Assembly: GCF_027579695.1 (NCBI RefSeq)
Contig: NC_083570.1
Span: 8,170,793 to 8,234,792, forward strand
Direction: 5' to 3'
DNA: 64,000 bases
Origin: Neoarius graeffei
Lineage: Eukaryota; Chordata; Actinopteri; Siluriformes; Ariidae
The notes beneath the pieces were generated by a model that did not search any database, was not told the origin of the DNA, and saw nothing but the letters and a program-made list of their open reading frames with translations. The stretch's first letter is position 1, and each line of letters begins with the position of its first letter. Of this stretch, positions 9,349 to 64,000 are shown piece by piece. The translations under genes and the position numbers were made by a program.

Positions 9349-9749
9349 GTATCTCACTGGGCTGCGACAAATTGCAAACGTCATTCACGAGAGAGTTTCA
9401 AAAGTGTCTTGAAACATTCTTCTCAATTTTCTCGCATGAGTTGCAAAGTGTCGCTCCTTCATCGCTGAAATTGTGAACGTGTTCAAAAAATTTGTGCGAC
9501 AAAATTTCTCTCAAAATTGTCGCGAACCCTTCTCAAGTCAGTTTCCGTGAGGCTTCCTCTACTTCCCTGCCTGCCGAGGGAAAGCTGGGCTGCGACAGCC
9601 TGCGACTAGTTGGAGACACAACAATTGTGGTAAAATATGAGAATATCAATTCAGTGCGATTCCAAGTGAAAATTGTCGCTAATTCGCATATTTTATCGCA
9701 ATTGTTGCGTCTCCAACTAGTCGCAGGCTGTCGCAGCCAAGTGGGATAC
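9349..9749. mobile_element. 401-bp MITE with long inverted repeats
   Basis: It begins GTATCTCACTGGGCTGCGAC and ends with the near inverse GTCGCAGCCAAGTGGGATAC, between TA at 9347-9348 and 9750-9751. A second, inner 30-bp inverted pair sits at 9589-9618 and 9709-9738 and carries ACTAGTTGGAGAC on one arm. It is inserted in the SINE above. The TA duplication suggests a Tc/mariner-type mobiliser, but this is inference. Confidence 0.65.
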
Positions 9750-9897
9750 TACCCTTACAGGCTGCTTTGGGTGTGTTGCCTGGATAAGAGCGTCTGCTAA
9801 ATGCCTGTAATGTACTGTAATGATCAACACCTTCTGACCAATCAGAATCCAGGATTCAGCAGTGCCATGGGATATAAACTTCTTATAAAAGAAAGAA

Positions 9898-10090
9898 GGG
9901 CGGCACGGTGGTGTAGTGGTTAGCGTTGTTGCCTCACAGCAAGAAGGTCCGGGTTCGAGCCCCGTGGCCGGCGAGGGCCTTTCTGTGCGGAGTTTGCATG
10001 TTCTCCCCGTGTCCGCGTGGGTTTCCTCCGGGTGCTCCGGTTTCCCCCACAGTCCAAAGACATGCAGGTTAGGTTAACTGGTGACTCTAA
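9898..10090 (+). mobile_element. V-SINE-like element A, 5' part (interrupted)
   Basis: A tRNA-like head with A-box-like GTGGTGTAGTGGTTAG and B-box GGTTCGAGCCC is followed by the conserved central block (TTTGCATGTTCTCCCCGTGT to AAGACATGCAGG). The sequence breaks off at CTCTAA, where a Harbinger-like element begins. The 3' remainder resumes at ATTGACCG at 13657. The family resembles DANA/mermaid-type fish SINEs (established family knowledge). Confidence 0.9.
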
Positions 10091-12230
10091 TGCTGTGTTC
10101 ACACTTATACCGGTACGAAAGTGGTATAACTGTATCGATACAAAGTATACCGGTACAGTTTACCGCATCTGTCCACACTAGCGAGAAATGTTTGCGGTTT
10201 TCTTTCACAGTAGTTGAAACGTGCGTGCACGAAATGTTTCCATGGTTACCGAGTAACTTCCTTCCGAGAATATGGCGGATGAAACAACATGTGTGTGCTT
10301 TTTGTTGTCAATGTACAGTCTGTATTTCTGGTGGTCATTTATTCAGTTGAATTGTATAAAACGCGCGAGGCAGTTGAGAAAGAAACAAACGAATCTCCGT
10401 TCTTCACTATTTTATTCAGCGAAGACATCGATTGAGGTGTGTGACTTTGCGCATGCGCATTATATTTGTATCGATACAGAGCCGCTTCATCTGTGAACAC
10501 TACAGCGAAGCGCTCCTGTACCGCAGTGGCGGCTGCTAGTTTTTAAAACAGGGGAAGCCCATTTTATGCATTCATCGTAAAACCTGTAGGCCGGATATCA
10601 AAGCATAGAAAGGTGTGCCCCATTAGCATAGTGAACTAGACAACCCTCCCTAGTGGCAGAAAGTATTTTTGCTTGTACATTTCATGTTATAGTCTGGCTT
10701 GCCAGGCTAGTGCCTCATATCCTTAATCAAAAATATCAAACATCCAAAAATCACTGGCTATTCAACGAAGAGCCTTGAACATCATACCCTGATATGCAAC
10801 ACAGAGTCTTTAACACAACACCCAGCTGTGCAACACATCCTTGAACATCTTCTGCAACACAGTCTGGAAATTCATAACCAGGTAGGCTATGCAACACACA
10901 GAACCTTGAATATTATACCCAGGTATAACCTATAACACAGAGCCCACCATTCTCTTAACATTACTGAACAATATACACACTTCACATTCATGAACATTAT
11001 ATGATGCACACTATTTATACACAAATTCTGCCCTCCGCTCCTTTTCCAGAAAATGGTCTGTGACCCTGTCATACTAGCTGGTTGTGCTTTCCAGAGACTT
11101 CACCAATTTCTGTTAGCAGCTAGCACTGCAGATCCCAATAAGGCTCAAGCGAGCCTACAACCAGATTGAACTACAAATGAAATAAACGAGTGAATTCGCG
11201 AATGATCAAACTGATAGAATGGATGAAAGTTAACGGAGCACAACGAGTAATATTTACATTTATTTACAGAGTAATGTACAGAGACATCAATGAGAAGAAA
11301 CGTTTATATGAAAAGAAAGTCGGACAGCACTTTGGCACACGACTACACTTTCTCGACATCCGCTAGGGACTGACTGATCATGCTTCCGTGTTCCTCGCCG
11401 ACGCCGAAGTACAGAGCCCACCCTCCTCATGTCTTTCAAACACTACCTCCAATAATCCTTCATCAGCCCGGCTTCTTGTCCCTCCCACTGTCTCGTTTAG
11501 TCCCAGAGAAGCCCGGCTTCCCTGGAAGTGACGATTTTGTCGATTTTAACCAATAACAACTAGCCGAAATTGGCTGTTCAGAGCCCTCTCATAGACTGCA
11601 ACGGATACCCGGCTGCCAGTCCATAGAGCCCATTGAAATAAGAAAGGTTACAGCCAGTGTTGCCAGATTGGGAGGTTTTAAGTGCATTTTGGCAGGTTTT
11701 GAACATATTTGGCTGGAAAATGTCAGCAGTATCTGGCAACGCTGGTTACAGCCTGGCAGCAAAGGTGATTCTCGTAGCGAACTGCAAGTTCGTCAGACAT
11801 CACTCAAATAAGTTACAGGATAGTTATGAACGTAAATACAATCTTGGGCATATATTATGTTATGCAAGTTATTGTTTTAATGAGAATTCAATGTCGTAGA
11901 CGCCACAGGCGTAACTTTAATAAGGACAGGTGGGGACATGTCCCCACCAACTTTGACAGGGCAGGGGACAGTCCCCGCCAACATTTCACGCCTTTTCTGA
12001 ACGTTTAGAGACACGCGCAACTGTTTTCCCCTGTTTTATCCCATGAATGACAAGCCCCGCTGTTGCCGCCGCTTAGCTGCTGTTTTGAGAGCTGTAACCT
12101 GATTGGCGGCAGCTCTCTGCTATGTGTAGCAATCAACGACTCATTGGTAGCAACGTCTAGAACTATTGGTATTCTAGTTCTACACAACGCGTGTGGTGTT
12201 GAATGGTGATGGCAGGTTAGCGGTGGTGTC

Positions 12231-12284
12231 ATGTCGGGAAAAATGCCAGTTGATATCCTGAGATTTTTCCGAAAACAATCAAAT
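12231..12284 (+). pseudogene. Possible first coding exon of a hAT transposase
   Basis: An ATG opens 18 codons (MSGKMPVDILRFFRKQSN) that end exactly at a consensus splice donor, GTAAGT at 12285. The short IxxFF segment followed by basic residues resembles the N-terminus of many hAT/ZMYM-type transposases. No downstream exon remains. It is too short for certainty. Confidence 0.3.
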
Positions 12285-12916
12285 GTAAGTAATGATGTCA
12301 TATTGCCTCGTTATAACGTAATATTATAGCATTTCACTGACTTTAGTTCTCCTTTCTTATTGCTAGGTGTAATCCTGGTTTAGTCCAGGTATAATCTAGT
12401 TTATTATTATATTAATTCTAGTTTAGTTTGCTCTTGTTTGTGGTTTAGCCTTGGTTTAGTCCTGATGTGATCCGTGTTTGCCCTGGCTGAAACATTGAAG
12501 TTCTGGTTTAGACCTGGCTCGTGTATAGTCCTGGTTTAGTTTTGAGTAGTCCTGTTTATGTGCTATCCCTTACCCCTTAGTTTGTATCTGTTTTGACTGA
12601 GCATTGTTGGTGGCCCTATTGTTTTTTTGTGACACTAGAATCAACAATAAAAAGATGGCAATGAATGTTTTAAGATGATACTGTTTATTGTGTATTTTTT
12701 CATATAGCGGTTGTACTGCAGGACACAAGTCCTTCCACAGAATCTAGTAATAATGTGTAATGTGTATATAGTTCATATGTAAAGTATGTTCAATCAACCA
12801 GTGTGCAAGAGAGTATTTGGTAGGTGTATTTTACCACCTTTTACCCATCAGAGTGCATCAGATTGCTTTATTTATGTGTGAAGATTCACAAAATTTTCTG
12901 GGGCAGGATCCCCCCC

Positions 12917-13181
12917 CCGCGTGGGTTTCCTCCGGGTGCTCCGGTTTCCCCCACAGTCCAAAGACATGCAGGTTAGGTTAACTGGTGACTCTAAATTGAG
13001 CGTAGGTGTGAATGTGAGTGTGAATGGTTGTCTGTGTCTATGTGTCAGCCCTGTGATGACCTGGCGACTTGTCCTGGGTGTACCCCGCCTTTCGCCCATA
13101 GTCAGCTGGGATAGGCTCCAGCTTGCCTGCGACCCTGTAGAAGGATAAAGCGGCTAGAGATAATGAGATGAGATGAGATGA
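12917..13181 (+). mobile_element. V-SINE-like element B, 5'-truncated
   Basis: It begins inside the central block at about CCGCGTGGGTTTCC and runs through the tail to ATGAGATGAGATGAG. GGATCCCCCCC is duplicated on both sides (12906-12916 and 13182-13192). It sits in hAT-like element 2 in the same orientation as interrupted host SINE A. That places two direct SINE tails about 0.66 kb apart. Confidence 0.9.
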
Positions 13182-15815
13182 GGATCCCCCCCAGTTCTAC
13201 ATTTGTTTGGTCCATCATGTTTTCAGCCTTTCACTGCATACCCATTGACAGCCTGCCCTGAAATGGTTTTCATAAAAGTAGTGAGGCCATAGTACGCATC
13301 TCAAAATGCATCAAAATTAAGCCTTAAAATGGGATCTTTCTAAATTTTCTCCAGGGGGACCATGCCCCCTGACCCTCCTTGAAGGGAAGTATCGTGCCTG
13401 GAAATGTCCCCACCAACTTTGAACACAAAGTTACGCCCTTGGTAGACGCCGCAGTTTGGGGAGAGAATTTTAGGGGAAGCTCGGCTTGTCTTGTCTCTGA
13501 GAAATCACCGCTGCGTACGAAACCCATACGTTTGTGGGTTTCGTACCGATACAGTTATACTGCTACAGTACCGGTATAGTTGCTAGTGTGGACAGGTGTT
13601 GCGGTACGAAAGTAGTATCGTATCGGTACAAAATCCCTAGTGTGGACAGGGTATAAATTGACCGTAGGTGTGAATGTGAGTGTGAATGGTTGTCTATGTG
13701 TCAGCCCTGTGATGACCTGGCGACTTGTCCAGGGTGTACCCCGCCTTTCGCCCGTAGTCAGCTGGGATAGGCTCCAGCTTGCCTGCGACCCTGTAGAAGG
13801 ATAAAGCGGCTAGAGATAATGAGATGAGATGAGATGAGGATCCCCCCCAGTTCTACATTTGTTTGGTCCATCATGTTTTCAGCCTTTCACTGCATACCCA
13901 TTGACAGCCTGCCCTGAAATGGTTTTCATAAAAGTAGTGAGGCCATAGTACGCATCTCAAAATGCATCAAAATTAAGCCTTAAAATGGGATCTTTCTAAA
14001 TTTTCTCCAGGGGGACCATGCCCCCTGACCCTCCTTGAAGGGAAGTATCGTGCCTGGAAATGTCCCCACCAACTTTGAACACAAAGTTACGCCCTTGGTA
14101 GACGCCGCAGTTTGGGGAGAGAATTTTAGGGGAAGCTCGGCTTGTCTTGTCTCTGAGAAATCACCGCTGCGTACGAAACCCATACGTTTGTGGGTTTCGT
14201 ACCGATACAGTTATACTGCTACAGTACCGGTATAGTTGCTAGTGTGGACAGGTGTTGCGGTACGAAAGTAGTATCGTATCGGTACAAAATCCCTAGTGTG
14301 GACAGGGTATAAATTGACCGTAGGTGTGAATGTGAGTGTGAATGGTTGTCTATGTGTCAGCCCTGTGATGACCTGGCGACTTGTCCAGGGTGTACCCCGC
14401 CTTTCGCCCGTAGTCAGCTGGGATAGGCTCCAGCTTGCCTGCGACCCTGTAGAAGGATAAAGCGGCTAGAGATAATGAGATGAGATGAGATGAGGATCCC
14501 CCCCAGTTCTACATTTGTTTGGTCCATCATGTTTCCAGCCTTTCACTGCATACCCATTGACAGCCTGCCCTGAAATGGTTTTCATAAAAGTAGTGAGGCC
14601 ATAGTACGCATCTCAAAATGCATCAAAATTAAGCCTTAAAACGGGATCTTTCTAAATTTTCTCCAGGGGGACCATGCCCCCTGACCCTCCTTGAAGGGAA
14701 GTATCGTGCCTGGAAATGTCCCCACCAACTTTGAACACAAAGTTACGCCCTTGGTAGACGCCGCAATTTGGGGAGAGAATTTTAGGGGAAGCTCGGCTTG
14801 TCTTGTCTCTGAGAAATCACCGCTGCGTACGAAACCCATACGTTTGTGGGTTTCGTACCGATACAGTTATACTGCTACAGTACCGGTATAGTTGCTAGTG
14901 TGGACAGGTGTTGCGGTACGAAAGTAGTATCGTATCGGTACAAAATCCCTAGTGTGGACAGGGTATAAATTGACCGTAGGTGTGAATGTGAGTGTGAATG
15001 GTTGTCTATGTGTCAGCCCTGTGATGACCTGGCGACTTGTCCAGGGTGTACCCCGCCTTTCGCCCATAGTCAGCTGGGATAGGCTCCAGCTTGCCTGCGA
15101 CCCTGTAGAAGGATAAAGCGGCTAGAGATAATGAGATGAGATGAGATGAGATGAGATGAGGATCCCCCCCAGTTCTACATTTGTTTCGTCCATCATGTTT
15201 CCAGCCTTTCACTGCATACCCATTGACAGCCTGCCCTGAAATGGTTTTCATAAAAGTAGTGAGGCCATAGTACGCATCTCAAAATGCATCAAAATTAAGC
15301 CTTAAAACGGGATCTTTCTAAATTTTCTCCAGGGGGACCATGCCCCCTGACCCCCCTTGAAGGGAAGTATCGTGCCTGGAAATGTCCCCACCAACTTTGA
15401 ACACAAAGTTACGCCCTTGGTAGACGCCGCAGTTTGGGGAGAGAATTTTAGGGGAAGCTCGGCTTGTCTTGTCTCTGAGAAATCACCGCTGCGTACGAAA
15501 CCCATACGTTTGTGGGTTTCGTACCGATACAGTTATACTGCTACAGTACCGGTATAGTTGCTAGTGTGGACAGGTGTTGCGGTACGAAAGTAGTATCGTA
15601 TTGGTACAAAATCCCTAGTGTGGACAGGGTATAAATTGAGCGTAGGTGTGAATGTGAGTGTGAATGGTTGTCTAAGTGTCAGCCCTGTGATGACCTGGCG
15701 ACTTGTCCAGGGTGTACCCCGCCTTTCGCCCGTAGTCAGCTGGGATAGGCTCCAGCTTGCCTGCGACCCTGTAGAACAGGATAAAGCGGCTAGAGATAAT
15801 GAGATGAGATGAGAT
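12995..15815. repeat. Four-unit tandem array, about 656 bp per unit
   Basis: Each unit is a SINE tail (from ATTGACCG/ATTGAGCG to the ATGAG repeats) plus the right part of the nested hAT-like and Harbinger-like elements, ending GGACAGGGTA-TAA. The TAA junctions fall at 12992, 13654, 14310, 14966 and 15632. The spacings are 662, 656, 656 and 666 bp. The differences are a 6-bp TCTGTG indel and 10 bp of ATGAG repeat. Units are nearly identical, so amplification is recent. ORFs of 66-67 codons recur once per unit and are not genes. Confidence 0.95.
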
Positions 15816-15829
15816 AAAACCACAACCCA

Positions 15830-16450
15830 CTATGGTTTGGTTTGGAACGAGCCAATCTGGCAACCCGGCGCCCACTACTACTCCTCCTCCTCCTCCTCGA
15901 TTAGAAACGGCTCGCGCATCATCTAACGTGGCAGTCTCCAGGACAACGTTTAAGTGGAACTCTTCTCGCGCTGCTGACGTAGAAGAATCGGGATGGTCTC
16001 GTGCGTCTAACCGAGCCGGAAGCGGGTTTATCTGTTGTTGCGCGCGCGCGCGGTTCATTTCCCGATGGACGGATGAACTTGTGGAGAACCTTAACGCGTC
16101 TCGGAGGAGGAGGAGGAGGAGGGCAGGAGGACAGAAAGGACACGGGATGCGTGTTGATGAGGAGGATGCACGCTTTCGGAGGAAATCCGTGAAGCGCGTG
16201 CCATGCGACAGTCTTACGTTTTTGCGCCGCGCGCGCTTTGGAGATGCGATTTTGGAAAGAGAGAAGACGCGCGCGCGCGCCGGAACACACGCCTTGTTCT
16301 CCGGAAAGCCTTTTCTTCACGCGCGCGCGCTCATGTCAATTAGGATGAAGAAGAAGGATGAAACGCGCGCGTGCGTCATGATGATGATGATGATGATGAT
16401 GGTGGCTAAATAAACCATTTCTTAACCAGTCGAACCCCAGCCCAGAGAAG
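15830..16450 (+). promoter_or_regulatory. CpG-rich block with splice donor: candidate TMEM200A promoter/exon 1
   Basis: This stretch is far richer in CpG than its surroundings, with several CGCGCGCG runs (for example 16040-16050, 16270-16279, 16320-16330). It is followed by AAG|GTGAGC at 16448-16456, a strong 5' splice site. A second donor, AAAG|GTGAGC, occurs at 17013. TMEM200A, about 11.8 kb downstream, begins with a splice acceptor before its ATG and so needs an upstream noncoding exon. That link is inference from position, strand and composition. Confidence 0.4.
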
Positions 16451-17228
16451 GTGAGCTCCTTCCATCATCACTGTGTGAACTTTAAAGTCCACTCTTCATA
16501 AACTCGGGTCACACAAAAGGTTCTTCAGGCCGGAGATCTGTGAGAGCAGAAAGCGAGAACCTCCCACCCTGAAGAACCTGTGAGGAACCTGTCTTTAGTG
16601 AGAGTGGACAGCAGGAACCGCAACCTCCTGATCTTCAAACCCGAGCCCGTTTTCACCCGGTACACTCTTCATCCTGTCTTTTCCTTCAGAATGATCAACT
16701 CGAGCTGCATTCTGGTTTAAAACATGGGGGGGGGAGTCGAATTGAATTGAATTGAATTCAGTGTTTATCATTAAAGAAATTAAAAGACAAAATAAAATCC
16801 TAAAAAAAAATTTTGCCAAAAATTCAACGAAAAAAAAAAGAATAAAATTAAAACAGTAATATTCGAGTTGCATTATGGGGTGAAAAACCTAAACTCGATT
16901 TTTTTTTTTTTTTAAATTCAGAATTGATGAATATAAACCCGACACCAGTTTTCCCAGTTTATCCCTCAGTCTCCAAAGAGTTTATAAACTTCTGTTTTAG
17001 AAAGAAAGAAAGGTGAGCTTTCGGTGATCTTCTCCCAGAACCAGGAACGCTCAGCTGCTCTTGTTTTGTGTTTCATGAAACATTGACACCTGGAAGGTCA
17101 GCTGTGGAAAATCCGTCCTAAAGATCTTCTGTGTCTCAGGGTTCAGGAGCAACGCTGAGGAGATTCCAGAGTTTGGAGGAGATCAGCATGTGAGCTGCTG
17201 GAAAAATATAAATCAGATACAGCCTGAG
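16451..17228. other. Noncoding, likely intronic or 5'-flanking
   Basis: AT-rich homopolymer-laden sequence with a GAATT run at 16740-16757. No gene is recognised apart from the alternative splice donor at 17013. Confidence 0.5.
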
Positions 17229-17470
17229 CTCAGCTCTCTCTCACTTGTCTCTCTCTACCCTCTCTCTCTCACTTGTGTGTGTGTGTGTGTGTGTGCGCGC
17301 GTCTCTCTCTCATGTGTGTGTCTCTCTCTCTCTCTCATGTGTCTCCTCTCTCACTTGTCTCTCTCCCTCTCTCTCACACACTCACTTAGCGCTCTCTCTC
17401 ACTTATGGCTCTCTTCCTCTCTCTCACACACACTCGCTTAGCACTCTCTCTCACTTGTGTATCTCTCTCC

Positions 17471-17507
<37 letters not shown>

Positions 17508-18435
17508 GGCGCTCTCTGTCACTTGTGTGTCTCTCTCTCTCCCTCACACACACTCACTTAGCGCTGTCTCTCACTTGTGTGTCTCTCTCTCTCTCTCACA
17601 CACAGTGCTGTCTCTCACTTGTGTGTCTCTCTCACACACAGCGCTCTCTCTCACTTGTGTCTCTCTCCCTCTCTCTCTCACACACAGCGCTCTCTCTCAC
17701 TTGTGTGTCTCTCTCCCTCTCTCTCTCACACACAGCGCTCTCTCTCACTTGTGTGTCTCTCTCTCTCTCTCTCACACTCAGCGCTCTCTCTCACTTGTGT
17801 GTCTCTCTCCCTCTCTCTCTCTCACACACTCAGCGCTCTCTCTCACTTGTGTGTGTGTCTCTCTCTCTCTCACACTCAGCGCTCTCTCTCACTTGTGTGT
17901 CTCTCTCCCTCTCTCTCTCTCACACACTCGGCGCTCTCTCTCACTTGTGTGTCTCTCTCCCTCTCTCTCTCACACACACTCAGCGCTCTCTCTTACTTGT
18001 GTGTCTCTCTCCCTCTCTCTCACACACTCAGCACTCTCTCTCACTTGTGTGTCTCTCTCACACACACTCAGTGCTCTCTCTCACTTGTGTGTCTCTCTCC
18101 CTCTCTCTCTCTCTCACACACTCAGCGCTCTCTCTCACTTGTGTGTCTCTCTCACACACACTCAGCGCTCTCTCTCTCACTTGTGTGTCTCTCTCCCTCT
18201 CTCTCACACACACTCATTTAGCGCTCTCACTTGTGTGTCTCTCTCTCTCCCTCTCTCACACACACACACTGCGCTCTCTTTCTATCTCTCTCACTTGTCT
18301 CTCTCTCACTTGTGTGTCTTTCTCTTCCCTCTCTCAGCTCTCTCTCTCTCCTCTCTTTCTCAGCTCTCTCTCGGTTCTCTTTCTATTAGCTCTCACTCAC
18401 TCTCACACACGCTCACTTAGCGCTCTCTCTCTCAC

Positions 18436-18468
<33 letters not shown>

Positions 18469-18626
18469 TCTCTCTCTCTCTCACACACACACACACTCAG
18501 CGCTCTCTTTCTATCTCTCTCACTTGTGTGTCTTTCTCTCCTCTCTCTCAGCTGTCTCTTCTCTCTCTCACTTGTCTCTCTCAGCTCTCTCTTCCCTCTC
18601 TCTCTCTCTCTCTCTCTTTCTTAGAT
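17229..18626 (+). repeat. CT/GT/CA minisatellite, 1.4 kb
   Basis: An imperfect unit of roughly 50 bp, centred on GCGCTCTCTCTCACTTGTGT followed by CTCTCTCCCTCTCTCTCACACACTCA, is repeated about 25-30 times with length changes in the CT, CA and GT runs. Because CTCTCT, GTGTGT and CACACA contain no stop codons, all three plus-strand frames are open for hundreds of codons of Ser, Leu, Thr, Val, His and Cys. These are not genes. Confidence 0.95.
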
Positions 18627-42417: not shown

Positions 42418-42815
42418 TACCCTGTCCACACTAGGGATTTTGTACCGATACGATACTACTTTCGTACCGCAACACCTGTCCACACTAGTAACTATACCGG
42501 TACTGTAGCGGTATAACTGTATTGGTACGAAACCCACAAATGTATGGGTTTCGTACCGGTACAGTATCGGTACTGTAGTGCTTCGCTGTAGTGTGGACAG
42601 ATGAAGCGGCTCTGTATCGATACAAATATAATGCGCATGCGCAAAGTCACACACCTCAATCGATGTCTTCGCTGAATAAAATAGTGAAGAACGGAGATTC
42701 GTTTGTTTCTTTCTCAACTGCCTCGCGCGTTTTATACGATTTGACTGAATAAATGACCACCAGAAATACAGACTGTACATTGACAACAAAAAGCACACAC
42801 ACGTTGTTTCATCCG

Positions 42816-43289
42816 TACGGAAGCCGAGAGAGGCCCTTCATATAATCCTTTTTTTTTATTCACCTTGTTATCCCGAGATAACGACATAATTAATTCAGGA
42901 TCTCGAGAAAACAACACAACTATTCCGTGATCTCGAGAAAACAAAACAATTATTTCATGATCTCGAGTAAACAGCTGAGAAATGGTTCATTCAGGTGCGC
43001 CAAGAGACTTGTGATATGCTGACTTTGGGGCTATTTCTCATTCTGTATAGACGCAACTTTGGTCATTAGAATGTCTGGAATAATCGATCACCTAATAAGG
43101 CAATATTTTGATCAGGGGTTGACACAGGGAGAGATTGCATTAAGTCTTTTAATAAGGGATCATTTCAAAATTAGTCCGCGGCACCTCCGCAGAAGACTGG
43201 CCCGGCTTCGTCTCTACTGACGGAGATACAGTGATCCAGCTGAGATCATGAAATAATTTTGTTTTCTCGAGATCTCAAAATAGCGGATG
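42816..43289 (+). mobile_element. Unclassified element with TCTCGAGAAAACAA repeats
   Basis: It is absent from copy 1, where CATCCG joins CCATAT directly. The left side holds three spaced repeats of about 30 bp (TCTCGAGAAAACAAAACAAT then TATTTCATGA) at 42900-42980. The right side holds one inverted copy (TCATGAAATAATTTTGTTTT then CTCGAGA) at 43246-43274. Between them lies a small ORF at 43071-43220. The target duplication is unclear. Confidence 0.6.
43071..43220 (+). pseudogene. 49-residue helix-turn-helix ORF of a DNA transposon
   Basis: ATG to TGA, encoding LIRQYFDQGLTQGEIALSLL followed by HFKISPRHLRRRLARLRL. The pattern YF-x-x-G-x-x-x-x-EI-x-x-x-L, then IS-x-R-x-L-x-R-x-L, matches the N-terminal helix-turn-helix of integrase-core proteins seen in fish genomes. 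The catalytic domain is absent. The match is from memory of the motif only. Confidence 0.4.
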
Positions 43290-43476
43290 CCATATATTCT
43301 CGGAAGGAAGTTACTCGGTAACCACGTAAACATTTCACGCACGCGCATTTCAACTACCATGAAAGAAACCTGCAAACATTTCTCGCTAGTGTGGACAGAT
43401 GCACTAAACTGTACCAGTATACTTTGTATCGATACAGTTATACCACTTTCGTACCGGTATAAGTGTGAACACAGCA

Positions 43477-45067: not shown

Positions 45068-46671
45068 CAGTGGGGCAAAAAAGTATTTAGTCAGTCATCA
45101 ATTGTGCAAGTTCTCCCACTTAAAAAGATGAGAGAGGCCTGTAATTTTCATCATAGGTACACTTCAACTATGAGAGACAGAATGAGAAAAAAAATCCAGA
45201 AAATCACATTGTCTGATTTTTAAAGAATTTATTTGCAAATTATGGTGGAAAATAAGTATTTGGTCAATAACAAAAGTTCATCTCAATACTTTGTTATATA
45301 CCCTTTGTTGGCAATGACAGAGGTCAAACGTTTTCTGTAAGTCTTCACAAGGTTTTCACACACTGTTGCTGGTATTTTGGCCCATTCCTCCATGCAGATC
45401 TCCTCTAGAGCAGTGATGTTTTGGGGCTGTCGCTGGGCAACACGGACTTTCAACTCCCTCCAAAGATTTTCTATGGGGTTGAGATCTGGAGACTGGCTAG
45501 GCCACTCCAGGACCTTGAAATGCTTCTTACGAAGCCACTCCTTCATTGCCCGGGCGGTGTGTTTGGGATCATTGTCATGCTGAAAGACCCAGCCACGTTT
45601 CGTCTTCAATGCCCTTGCTGATGGAAGGAGGTTTTCACTCAAAATCTCACGATATATGGCCCCATTCATTCTTTCCTTTACACGGATCAGTCGTCCTGGT
45701 CCCTTTGCAGAAAAACAGCCCCAAAGCATGATGTTTCCACCCCCATGCTTCACAGTAGGTATGGTGTTCTTTGGATGCAACTCAGCATTCTTTCTCCTCC
45801 AAACACAACAAGTTGAGTTTTTACCAAAAAGTTCTATTTTGGTTTCATCTGACCATATGACATTCTCCCAATCCTCTTCTGGATCATCCAAATGCTCTCT
45901 AGCAAACTTCAGACGGGCCTGGACATGTACTGGCTTAAGCAGGGGGACACGTCTGGCACTGCAGGATTTGAGTCCCTGGCGGCGTAGTGTGTTACTGATG
46001 GTAGCCTTTGTTACTTTGGTCCCAGCTCTCTGCAGGTCATTCACTAGGTCCCCCCGTGTGGTTCTGGGATTTTTGCTCACCGTTCTTGTGATCATTTTGA
46101 CCCCACGGGGTGAGATCTTGCGTGGAGCCCCAGATCGAGGGAGATTATCAGTGGTCTTGTATGTCTTCCATTTTCTAATAATTGCTCCCACAGTTGATTT
46201 CTTCACACCAAGCTGCTTACCTATTGCAGATTCAGTCTTCCCAGCCTGGTGCAGATCTGCAATTTTGTTTCTGGTGTCCTTTGACAGCTCTTTGGTCTTG
46301 GCCATAGTGGAGTTTGGAGTGTGACTGTTTGAGGTTGTGGACAGGTGTCTTTTATACTGATAACGAGTTCAAACAGGTGCCATTAATACAGGTAACGAGT
46401 GGAGGACAGAGGAGCCTCTTAAAGAAGAAGTTACAGGTCTGTGAGAGCCAGAAATCTTGCTTGTTTGTAGGTGACCAAATACTTATTTTACCGAGGAATT
46501 TACCAATTAATTCATTAAAAATCCTACAATGTGATTTCCTGGATTCTTTCCCCCCATTCTGTCTCTCATAGTTGAAGTGTACCTATGATAAAAATTACAG
46601 GCCTCTCTCATCTTTTTAAGTGGGAGAACTTGCACAATTGGTGGCTGACTAAATACTTTTTTGCCCCACTG
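45068..46671 (-). mobile_element. Tc1/mariner element, copy C (1604 bp, intact coding)
   Basis: Starts CAGTGGGGCAAAAAAGTATT and ends AATACTTTTTTGCCCCACTG, perfect inverses, with TA at 45066-45067 and 46672-46673. The terminal repeats run about 200 bp and carry matching inner motifs (GTGCAAGTTCTCCCACTTAA at both ends). Termini of this type are known from fish Tc1 elements such as Passport (family knowledge, not verified here). It differs from copies A and B in both termini and protein. Confidence 0.97.
45283..46305 (-). CDS. Tc1-type transposase, full-length 340 aa
   Basis: Cut-and-paste DNA transposase that binds the element's inverted repeats and inserts at TA. It reads from ATG 46305 ([20 protein letters not shown]) to TAT-stop at 45283 with no stop or frameshift. 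Two helix-turn-helix motifs (about residues 5-50 and 65-115) are separated by a basic [10 protein letters not shown]-type linker. The catalytic DD34E residues are Asp153 ([10 protein letters not shown]), Asp244 ([10 protein letters not shown]) and Glu279 ([11 protein letters not shown]), with exactly 34 residues between the last two. A Gly-rich box ([13 protein letters not shown]) is at 187-198. The length equals that of well-known active fish-type Tc1 transposases. Its ATG lies inside the right inverted-repeat side of the element. Activity cannot be judged from sequence, and single substitutions may still inactivate it. Confidence 0.95.
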
Positions 46672-61559: not shown

Positions 61560-64000
61560 TGAGGGTGGTGTCCTACAACTCTCGTGGTCTCTGAGTAGGA
61601 CACATGGACGCAGACAAGGCAAGGCGACTGGTTGTGGATACACTTCTGGATGATTGTGATATCTTGTGCATTCAGGAGAGCTGGCTGGCCAAGCAGGACT
61701 TGGATAAATTAAATAACCTGCACCCAGACTTCTATGGTGTGGGTGAATCTACCACGGACCTCAGTACAAGAATTGTCAGAGGTAGGATAGCTGGGGGAGT
61801 GGCTATTTTATGGAATATGAAATATGACTCTATGGTTAAAGTTGTGCGTCTTAATGTGGACTGGGCCATTGGTCTTGAAGTTAATTGCAATGGAAAGATT
61901 TTTATTATTCTTAATATATATACTCCATACGAATCATATGATCATGTTGATGAATATGTTAGTAAGCTTGCTTTTGTAGAATCCTTTATTGAAGATGACA
62001 ACTCATCTTGCATCTATGTTTTGGGTGATTTTAATGCAGACTTGACAGATAATAAGTCGTTGTTTGCTAAACATATGTTAAGGTTCTCAAATGACGCTAA
62101 CCTGGTAATTTCAAGTAAAGTGCTCTTGCCTGACTCAAGTCATACTTACGTTAGTGAAGCATGGAATACTACTTTGTGGTTAGATCACATAGTATCCACT
62201 GTTGATGCTCATGCCTCATTAGAAAGCATTGAGGTTTGTTATGGGTTAGCTACCTCTGACCATATTCCTATTGTCATGGTATTAAATGTGGACAATGTAA
62301 CCAAGCTGGTTAAAAATGAGGTGGTCAGTGAGGCTAAGATATGGTAGATTGGGGTAAACTGTCTGATGGTGCTGTCTTCAAATATTGCTTCAATTCAGAA
62401 GATCTTTTGAAAAAGGTATATTTGCCCACGAATGCCATTTGTTGTACTAATGTTAACTGTGAGGACTCTTCCCATGGAGAAAGTTTGTGTAATATGTACA
62501 ATGACCTAGTGAGAGCTCTACTTGGGGCTAGCAAGTCACTGCTCACTCATTCTAGGAAGGCCAAAAATATCAAGGCAGGGTGGAATAAGTTTGTTGCTAG
62601 TCATCATGCTGAAGCTAATGAAGCCCATAGGGCCTGGGTAATAGCTGGTCGGCCCAGGCAGAGGCCGGAGCGGGAATATAAAAAGAAAATGAATGCTAGG
62701 TATAAATATGCACTGCGGTATATAAGCAAACAAGAGCAGGTATTGAGTGCTCACTCCATGGCTGACAATTTGCTAAAAAATGACATCACTAACTTCTGGA
62801 AAGAGGTAAAAACCCTTAATAGGGCTAAAACTGCTCTTCCATGTAATATAGAGGGGGTAACGGATGCAGAGGACATAGGTGACCTCTGGAGGCAGCATTA
62901 TGCAGCCTTGTTTAACTGTATCAGGAGTGAGCCTTATCGTGTTGGTAAAATAGAAGAGGAAAATGTTTATTTCCACACCAATGATGTTCTTATTGCCATA
63001 GGGCAACTTGCAGACAAAAAAGCTAGTGGCCTGGACAATATAACAGCAGAGCATTTAAAGTTAGCTGGCCCAAGGCTGGCAGTGCTGCTATCTGTATGTT
63101 TTACTGGGCTGGTGACTCATGGTACATTTGCCAGACTCCATGCTGTCAGTAATTCTAGTCCCAGTTATTAAAGATAAGGCTGGTAAAGTTGGTAGTATTG
63201 ATAATTATAGACCTATAGCACTTGCTAGCACTCTTTCTAAAGTGCTAGAAAGATTGATCTTGGACACGTTAAGTGGTTATATAACCACCACTGACAGTCA
63301 GTTTGGGTTTAAGCTCAAGCATAGTACTGACCAATGTATTTATGCTTTGAAAGAGATAATTGAGACATATAGAAGACAGGGTTCCACTATGCTGATACGT
63401 TTTATAGATGCATCTAAAGCCTTCGACTGTGTTAACCACTTTAAGCTGTTTAGCAAACTCAAGAATAGGGTTGTGCCCAGTAGCTTAGTACGCATAGTGG
63501 TTTATTGGTATGCTAACCAAAGTATGCGGGTTAAATGGGGGAGCATCTTTTCCACCCCTTTTAAAGTAGGTAATGGGGTATGGCAGGGGGGAATTCTATC
63601 CCCAGCCCTATTCAATGTTTATATGGATGACCTGTCTAGGCAGTTGGGGGGGGGGTGCCGGACAGGGTGTATGGTAGGCGATACCTTGATTAATCATTTT
63701 CTATATGCAGGTGACCTTACCATTCTATCCCCCAGTAGCAGTGGGTTTCAATGGCTGCTTAACATCTGTTCTAATTATGGGGTGGAGTTTGACATTAAGT
63801 ATAATGCTAAGAAGAGTGTGGTAATGGTTTGTAGGACCAAGGATGACATAGAAATTAAGTTCCCTACTTTTTATCTATCGGGGAAGAGCTGGGGTGCCCA
63901 ATTCTACTAAGTACTTGGGGCACGTTATTACTGATACAGTACGTTGGAGGACAATGCTGACATGAGTAGACAGAGGAGATTGCTCTATGTACAAGCTAAC
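61559..64000 (+). pseudogene. LINE ORF2: endonuclease plus reverse transcriptase (broken, partial)
   Basis: It starts ATG 61559 (MRVVSYNSRGL) with TGA at codon 12 (61592). The endonuclease follows: CDILCIQESW (catalytic Glu), VLGDFNAD, a WLDH block and ATSDHIPI. Near 62340 the frame shifts. A linker region (62341-63115) contains DKKASGLDNITAEHLKLAGP. A second shift near 63118 leads to the reverse transcriptase: NYRPIALASTLSKVLERLIL, FIDASKAFDCVNH, GVWQGGILSPALFNVYMDDL, and the catalytic box reads YAGD (about 63705-63716) where YADD is expected. A stop at 63908 and another shift follow. The end is cut by the window. Confidence 0.9.

Follow-up and report, generated by a model that had tools for sequence, protein, structure and literature searches.

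A tandem array of composite transposon units in Neoarius graeffei, probably seeded by recombination between two SINE tails

We analysed a 64,000-nucleotide stretch of the Neoarius graeffei genome (the window; contig C2, 8170793-8234792), in which positions 9898-15815 hold a nest of five transposable elements whose right side is present as a tandem array of four units. The nest is made up of a putatively transfer RNA (tRNA)-type short interspersed nuclear element (SINE A), a Harbinger-like element, two hAT-like elements (hAT-1 and hAT-2) and a second SINE of the same family (SINE B). We propose that the array very probably arose by homologous recombination between the tails of the two SINEs, followed by unequal exchange between the resulting units. 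The nest, the boundaries of the units, the mixed markers of the inner SINE tails and a ladder of substitutions are read directly from the letters, and from them we infer the enzymatic route, the timing and the number of steps. Positions are window coordinates throughout, C1 and C2 denote genome contigs and L-numbers denote fetched genomic stretches; genome-wide searches covered the 2.34-Gb genome in 38 contigs. The parts of the nest and of the array, with the units designated U1 to U4 and the final tail U5, are as follows.

9898..10090, plus strand: 5' part of SINE A, a putative tRNA-like SINE, ending in the TAA target; 98.4% to a consensus from 29 SINE hits
10091..10523, plus strand: left arm of the Harbinger-like element, compared with a second copy in the window (42421-43476, minus strand) and 26 fetched copies
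10524..11895, plus strand: left part of hAT-1, beginning CAGTGGCGGCTGCT; 39 other full-length copies, ends read in 10
11896..11903, plus strand: left copy of the 8-bp duplication GTAGACGC, the hAT-2 target in hAT-1; all 10 of the other hAT-1 copies whose ends were read have this site once and without an insert
11904..12904, plus strand: left part of hAT-2, a short form of the element, identified by its 539-bp core and 8-bp duplications
12905..12916, plus strand: left target duplication of SINE B, (A)GGATCCCCCCC
12917..13180, plus strand: SINE B, 5'-truncated, from SINE position about 118; 98.1% to the SINE consensus
12992..13653, plus strand: U1, consisting of the SINE B tail, the hAT-2 end, the hAT-1 end and the Harbinger end
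13442..13449, plus strand: right GTAGACGC duplication, the first of four
13450..13513, plus strand: right end of hAT-1 in U1
13514..13653, plus strand: right arm of the Harbinger-like element in U1
13654..14309, plus strand: U2, starting with a SINE tail read as chimeric
13690..13797, plus strand: interval of U2 in which the tail changes from A-like to B-like, narrowing to 13754-13797 when the G/A site at 13754 is counted
14310..14965, plus strand: U3, starting with a SINE tail read as chimeric
14966..15631, plus strand: U4, whose tail, also read as chimeric, has two extra ATGAG and whose hAT-2 block is without the differences common to the other units
15632..15815, plus strand: U5, the final tail, which is the severed 3' tail of SINE A (184 bp)

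The four units are direct repeats of 662 (U1), 656 (U2), 656 (U3) and 666 bp (U4), and their junctions (12992, 13654, 14310, 14966 and 15632) lie exactly where a prediction made beforehand for this locus (the original prediction) had placed them. That the junctions coincide with the SINE tail was correct in that they fall inside it, but they are equivalent reference points, set at the TAA in the SINE, and the exchange points themselves lie deeper in the tail. Self-comparison, proposed as a check on the array, gave 98.5% identity across 2,168 bp with a period of 662, which excludes chance similarity of the units.

When the genome was searched for the unit at other sites using U1, the complete unit was found at the four array places only (among 44 matches; 40 of 3,125 candidates were scored). 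Apart from these, U1 matched the beginning of the array's final tail, a C1 locus with a SINE tail and a hAT-2 end, and elsewhere the hAT-2 end alone. An exact pattern across the fusion of SINE tail and hAT-2 occurred five times in the genome, namely in the four units and at the C1 locus, where no tandem copy of the fusion was seen. The array had been called satellite-like; a tandem array formed by unequal exchange is supported, whereas the comparison with satellites, which are long arrays with many units at several places, does not hold for four units at one place, which are too few. The array unit was also found in no other sequence of a 281-kb scan (67 sequences including the window, a non-random set made up mostly of hAT-2 and Harbinger fetches). 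That scan also showed a 123-bp tandem (L018, L019), a pair of adjacent SINEs (L020) and pairs that were weaker or farther apart (L009, L043, L046, L078 and the window). At L075:196-617, two truncated SINE tails stand head to tail with a period of 212 bp; they are 98% alike, and the flanking TTTCATTGAATGTGTAT is repeated between them.

The inner SINE tails combine features of both parents. On the left, the tails of U2-U4 adjoin the Harbinger end and TAA, as SINE A does, and on the right they adjoin the hAT-2 target duplication, as SINE B does. A 6-bp motif, TGTCTG, is present in U1 (SINE B) and missing from U2-U4 and from U5 (SINE A), and a dinucleotide, AC, is present in U5 and missing from U1-U4. 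A 29-base core of the SINE family, with its site uninterrupted, has 171,710 exact copies in the genome; the dispersed copies of the family, both full-length and truncated, have (ATGAG)n tails. The form with the 6-bp deletion has 4,207 exact matches in the genome (including U2-U4), compared with 156,049 for the full form, and was found in one of the 28 covering copies in the local sample; at the AC site, 13 of 28 covering local copies have exactly AC, 9 are exactly AC-less and 6 have other forms. The U2 tail has no substitution relative to the local 29-hit consensus and differs from it by two gaps only, the 6 bp and the AC. Over the six variable sites, U2 and U3 require two changes as A-to-B chimeras, three as pure A tails and four as pure B tails, and the corresponding numbers for U4 are two, four and three. 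An A-like left context, a B-like right context and one marker from each parent are what unequal exchange between the tails predicts, and the earlier proposal of such an exchange is therefore supported.

The hAT-2 block of the units indicates how the array grew. Relative to a 39-copy consensus, this block differs at position 29 in U4 (a private difference), at 196 in U3, and at 43, 150 and 196 in both U1 and U2. C stands at position 196 in all 38 other covering hAT-2 copies and at position 43 in 39 of 39. This nested ladder of substitutions indicates that the block beside SINE B was copied one unit per step. Growth in two-unit steps was also considered and was rejected, as the alternating pattern of block substitutions expected from it is absent. 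U1 and U2 have no difference at any block column, suggesting that the last step was recent or that the two units have been homogenised. Three units have differences that are private to them: U1 has the 6-bp motif and a T at column 84, U3 has an A at column 475, and U4 has a tail that gained 10 bp, a C at 230 and a T at 645.

Several observations weigh against this account. On the tail sites, the chimera is ahead of the next best model by one change, and given this small margin the flanking context bears most of the weight for a chimeric origin. At column 9, the outer tails (U1 and U5) have G and the inner ones (U2-U4) have C, which costs one extra change either way; the local sample has 18 C and 9 G at this column, whereas the first 100 of the 171,710 core places, all at one end of C1 and scored by eye, have about 32 C and 68 G, and the disagreement means that the local consensus letter may not be that of the genome. 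The G/A site is A in U1 and U4 and G in U2, U3 and U5, which requires one change; it is a CpG-type site, with 19 G, 10 A and 1 C in the local sample. The homology shared by the tails is also short, about 184-190 bp at 94%, and the rung of the ladder at position 150 is weaker, this position being variable among the other copies (34 C, 5 T).

Each boundary of the nest was checked against other copies of the same element in the genome, with tallies made by script, and these copies bore out the predicted five-element nest at 9898-15815. The checks give good support to the insertion order SINE A, Harbinger-like element, hAT-1, hAT-2 and SINE B, as it would be read from the letters, and slightly less to its last step. 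That hAT-2 preceded SINE B is likely, not certain, because one other hAT-2 copy has a SINE at the identical site. The 5' part of SINE A has three substitutions relative to the 29-hit consensus and its tail has two, and four further copies in the window align across all 193 bases of the 5' part. Its own target duplication is weak, at best a 6-bp candidate seen by eye (ATAAAA). The SINE A head has motifs, recognised by eye, that look box-A/B-like; ARAGORN called no tRNA in this head region (9800-10100). TAA is present on both sides of the Harbinger-like element at the array locus, in line with the predicted duplication. Among its 26 fetched copies, the 3 bp on the two flanks are identical in 15 (12 TAA, 1 TTA, 1 TAC and 1 TTG); of the other 11, 8 differ and 3 are without a readable left end. 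A target duplication of 3 bp (TWA) together with terminal inverted repeats defines PIF/Harbinger elements, and the element is accordingly labelled a putative nonautonomous PIF/Harbinger-like element on the basis of its 3-bp target duplication and its terminal inverted repeats (TGCTGTGTTCACAC and GTGTGGACAGGGTA).

For hAT-1, 39 other full-length matches to 10527-11890 were found at 98-99% (40 of 3,739 candidates were scored). The 8-bp duplications of ten other copies were exact in six, had one mismatch in three and were unreadable, owing to a TA repeat, in one. No intact 8-bp duplication is visible at the window copy, which has CTGTACCG before it and CGTACGAA after it; this would be explained if the right copy of the duplication had lost 7 bp. 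The predicted 8-bp duplication of hAT-2 is in place, with GTAGACGC on both flanks of the element in the window, and in 39 fetched hAT-2 loci such duplications were exact in 34, matched in 7 of 8 letters in 1 and were unreadable or absent in 4. It is these 8-bp target duplications that suggest the hAT label for both elements. The 539-bp core of the window hAT-2 copy agrees at every position with the majority of 38 copies. SINE B is flanked by (A)GGATCCCCCCC, again as predicted, and the insert is missing from that site in 38 of the 39 fetched hAT-2 loci. Divergence from the family consensus does not follow the nesting order, and its use as an age ladder was therefore abandoned. The Harbinger-like element has 18 substitutions in the 433 positions of its left arm and 2 in 139 of the right arm in U1; this is near the family mean of 3.2% and is therefore not an age.

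We propose the following course of events. The Harbinger-like element split SINE A at its TAA, leaving the 184-bp 3' tail downstream; hAT-1 then inserted into the Harbinger-like element, and hAT-2 into hAT-1. The 5'-truncated SINE B would have entered hAT-2 in the same orientation as SINE A, and the tails of B and A would thereby have formed direct repeats at a distance of about 660 bp. Non-allelic homologous recombination of the tails, by unequal crossing-over or sister exchange and seen through its product only, would have duplicated the intervening block, with the first exchange yielding a chimeric A-to-B tail. The unit of roughly 650 bp would then have provided the homology for two or more additional steps of one unit each, resulting in four units. 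Retroposition of the whole unit was considered as a source of the copies and rejected, as the unit consists of DNA-transposon ends and the flanks are unchanged.

Template switching during replication, of the break-induced or fork-stalling type, could have acted between the SINE tails to give the first duplication or several units without a crossover. An identical homologous chimeric junction would be expected from it, and crossing-over and a homology-driven replication switch are not separable by sequence. In human rearrangements mediated by transposable elements, replication-based events are grouped with non-homologous repair, and multi-copy events are flanked by homologous elements (PMC9675761). 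However, the nested ladder speaks for separate one-unit steps over time and not for a single burst, and the junctions contain no inserted or shuffled sequence; we consider template switching distinctly unlikely. The same ladder fits local stepwise growth better than the passage of the block through a circle. Intrachromatid recombination between direct repeats yields circles, and a block excised in this way via the SINE tails could have been re-integrated singly or as a multimer, with identical junctions expected if re-entry used the same homology. Elsewhere in the genome, however, the fusion pattern occurs at one independent-looking locus only, and this route appears extremely improbable. It is also very unlikely that the assembly overstates or misstates the unit count, as it might by joining two haplotypes of unequal length. 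The absence of any block-column difference between U1 and U2 would agree with such an error, but U1, U3 and U4 each carry unit-private differences and the window contains no N; even if the units were miscounted, both edges of the array and at least one inner fusion would stay real.

The last steps of the nest would be reversed, and the array mechanism left unchanged, if hAT-2 already bore SINE B when it entered hAT-1, which we regard as rather unlikely. In a hAT-2 copy on C1 (L009, C1:120748000-120757900), a SINE lies at the exact GGATCCCCCCC site in the same orientation, and this SINE and SINE B both lack AC and have A at column 107. However, the L009 SINE is full length and sits in a long-form hAT-2, whereas SINE B starts from position 118 and sits in a short form, and both variants that these SINEs share are frequent in the family (9 of 28 and 10 of 30). 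Given the differences in length and in hAT-2 form, two independent hits at one site fit better than an ancestral SINE. Another insertion, about 1.7 kb long, interrupts the sequence at L009.

Beyond recombination between the SINE tails at this locus, the Harbinger-like element appears to have a preferred target in the SINE, around CTCTAAATTG. Counting by exact patterns, and with TAA-flanked Harbinger right ends only as the denominator, we found 521 right ends followed by TAA genome-wide, 4 of them in the array and 517 outside. The SINE context, TAAATTGA, follows 28 right ends, 4 in the array and 24 outside it at 23 places. Against these 24, 1.0-1.3 would be expected of 517. The excess is 19- to 23-fold, but the expected number is drawn from a small sample and by exact matching: the value of 1.3 comes from 68 kb of the window and sequence near it, with 2,464 TAA sites (6 TAAATTGA, 4 of them in the SINE), and that of 1.0 from the genome count of the SINE core. 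Five of the 23 places were read (L054, L055, L058, L062 and L063), and all five are this SINE. The Harbinger-like element may therefore be drawn to one fixed TAA of an abundant SINE, a preference that these counts do not separate from a general CTAA-type taste. It is conceivable, though doubtful, that this hot site is a standing generator of composite tandem arrays and that the present locus is one product of a recurrent process. If so, each Harbinger hit would park a severed SINE tail beside transposon arms, new SINE copies could land nearby, and the hot site would provide countable loci for asking how frequently arrays start. At L062:1032-2287, two same-orientation Harbinger-like copies, apparently inside one SINE, are 94% alike with a period of 623 bp.

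Other features lie in the neighbourhood of the array. Directly after it, 15816-16500 is CpG-rich (GC 54%, CpG observed/expected 1.28). A 568-codon open frame at 28066-29772 matches Pfam DUF2371, and we take this frame to be TMEM200-like; together with the repeats it would point to a bony fish. The CpG-rich stretch, about 12 kb before the DUF2371 frame, is possibly a promoter beside a length-variable array. Just left of SINE A, 9585-9741 forms a hairpin with the look of a foldback element (60-nt arms, 92% complementarity, 37-nt loop), and 17200-18620 is a large, degenerate array of CT/CA-rich tandem repeats whose periods include 52 and 98 bp. Further away, an open frame of 361 amino acids at 45286-46368 on the minus strand encodes a Tc1/Sleeping Beauty-type transposase, and fragments of long interspersed nuclear elements, with endonuclease and reverse transcriptase domains in separate frames, lie at 61595-63910.

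McGurk and Barbash reportedly put forward in 2018 a double-insertion model in which two nearby copies of one element give rise, through unequal exchange, to a tandem array. As in that model, two nearby copies of the same element would supply the homology here; unlike the model, which reportedly concerns tandem copies of one element, the unit here lies between the copies and is a mixture of four elements. The double-insertion model of satellite birth is cited in two reviews (PMC12628747, PMC9659126). In humans, nearby SINEs recombine homologously (the Alu/Alu type) and leave a chimeric SINE, with some multi-copy cases (PMC9675761). The array resembles these events in its direct, same-family elements about 0.7 kb apart, its chimeric element and its raised copy number, and differs in that one partner is a tail cut off from its element by other transposons, that another SINE family is involved and that the unit consists wholly of four transposon ends. 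In squamate reptiles, the first duplication of SINE-derived satellites has been ascribed to unequal homologous recombination (PMC10702118). There too, SINE sequence initiates the array, but the units in that study derive from parts of a SINE, whereas here the SINE tail makes up about 190 bp of a 650-bp unit. A 2025 review regards the origin of satellite monomers containing several transposons as an open question and proposes nesting plus tandemization (PMC12628747). Like the composite monomers from transposon graveyards it describes, the present unit contains stretches of several transposon types; unlike them, its steps are readable, its elements are hardly degraded and it is present in four units only. 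Both the kind of event and its mechanism are already known, and it is the legibility that is unusual: the locus displays nesting plus tandemization with nearly every step legible, which makes it a good teaching and test case.

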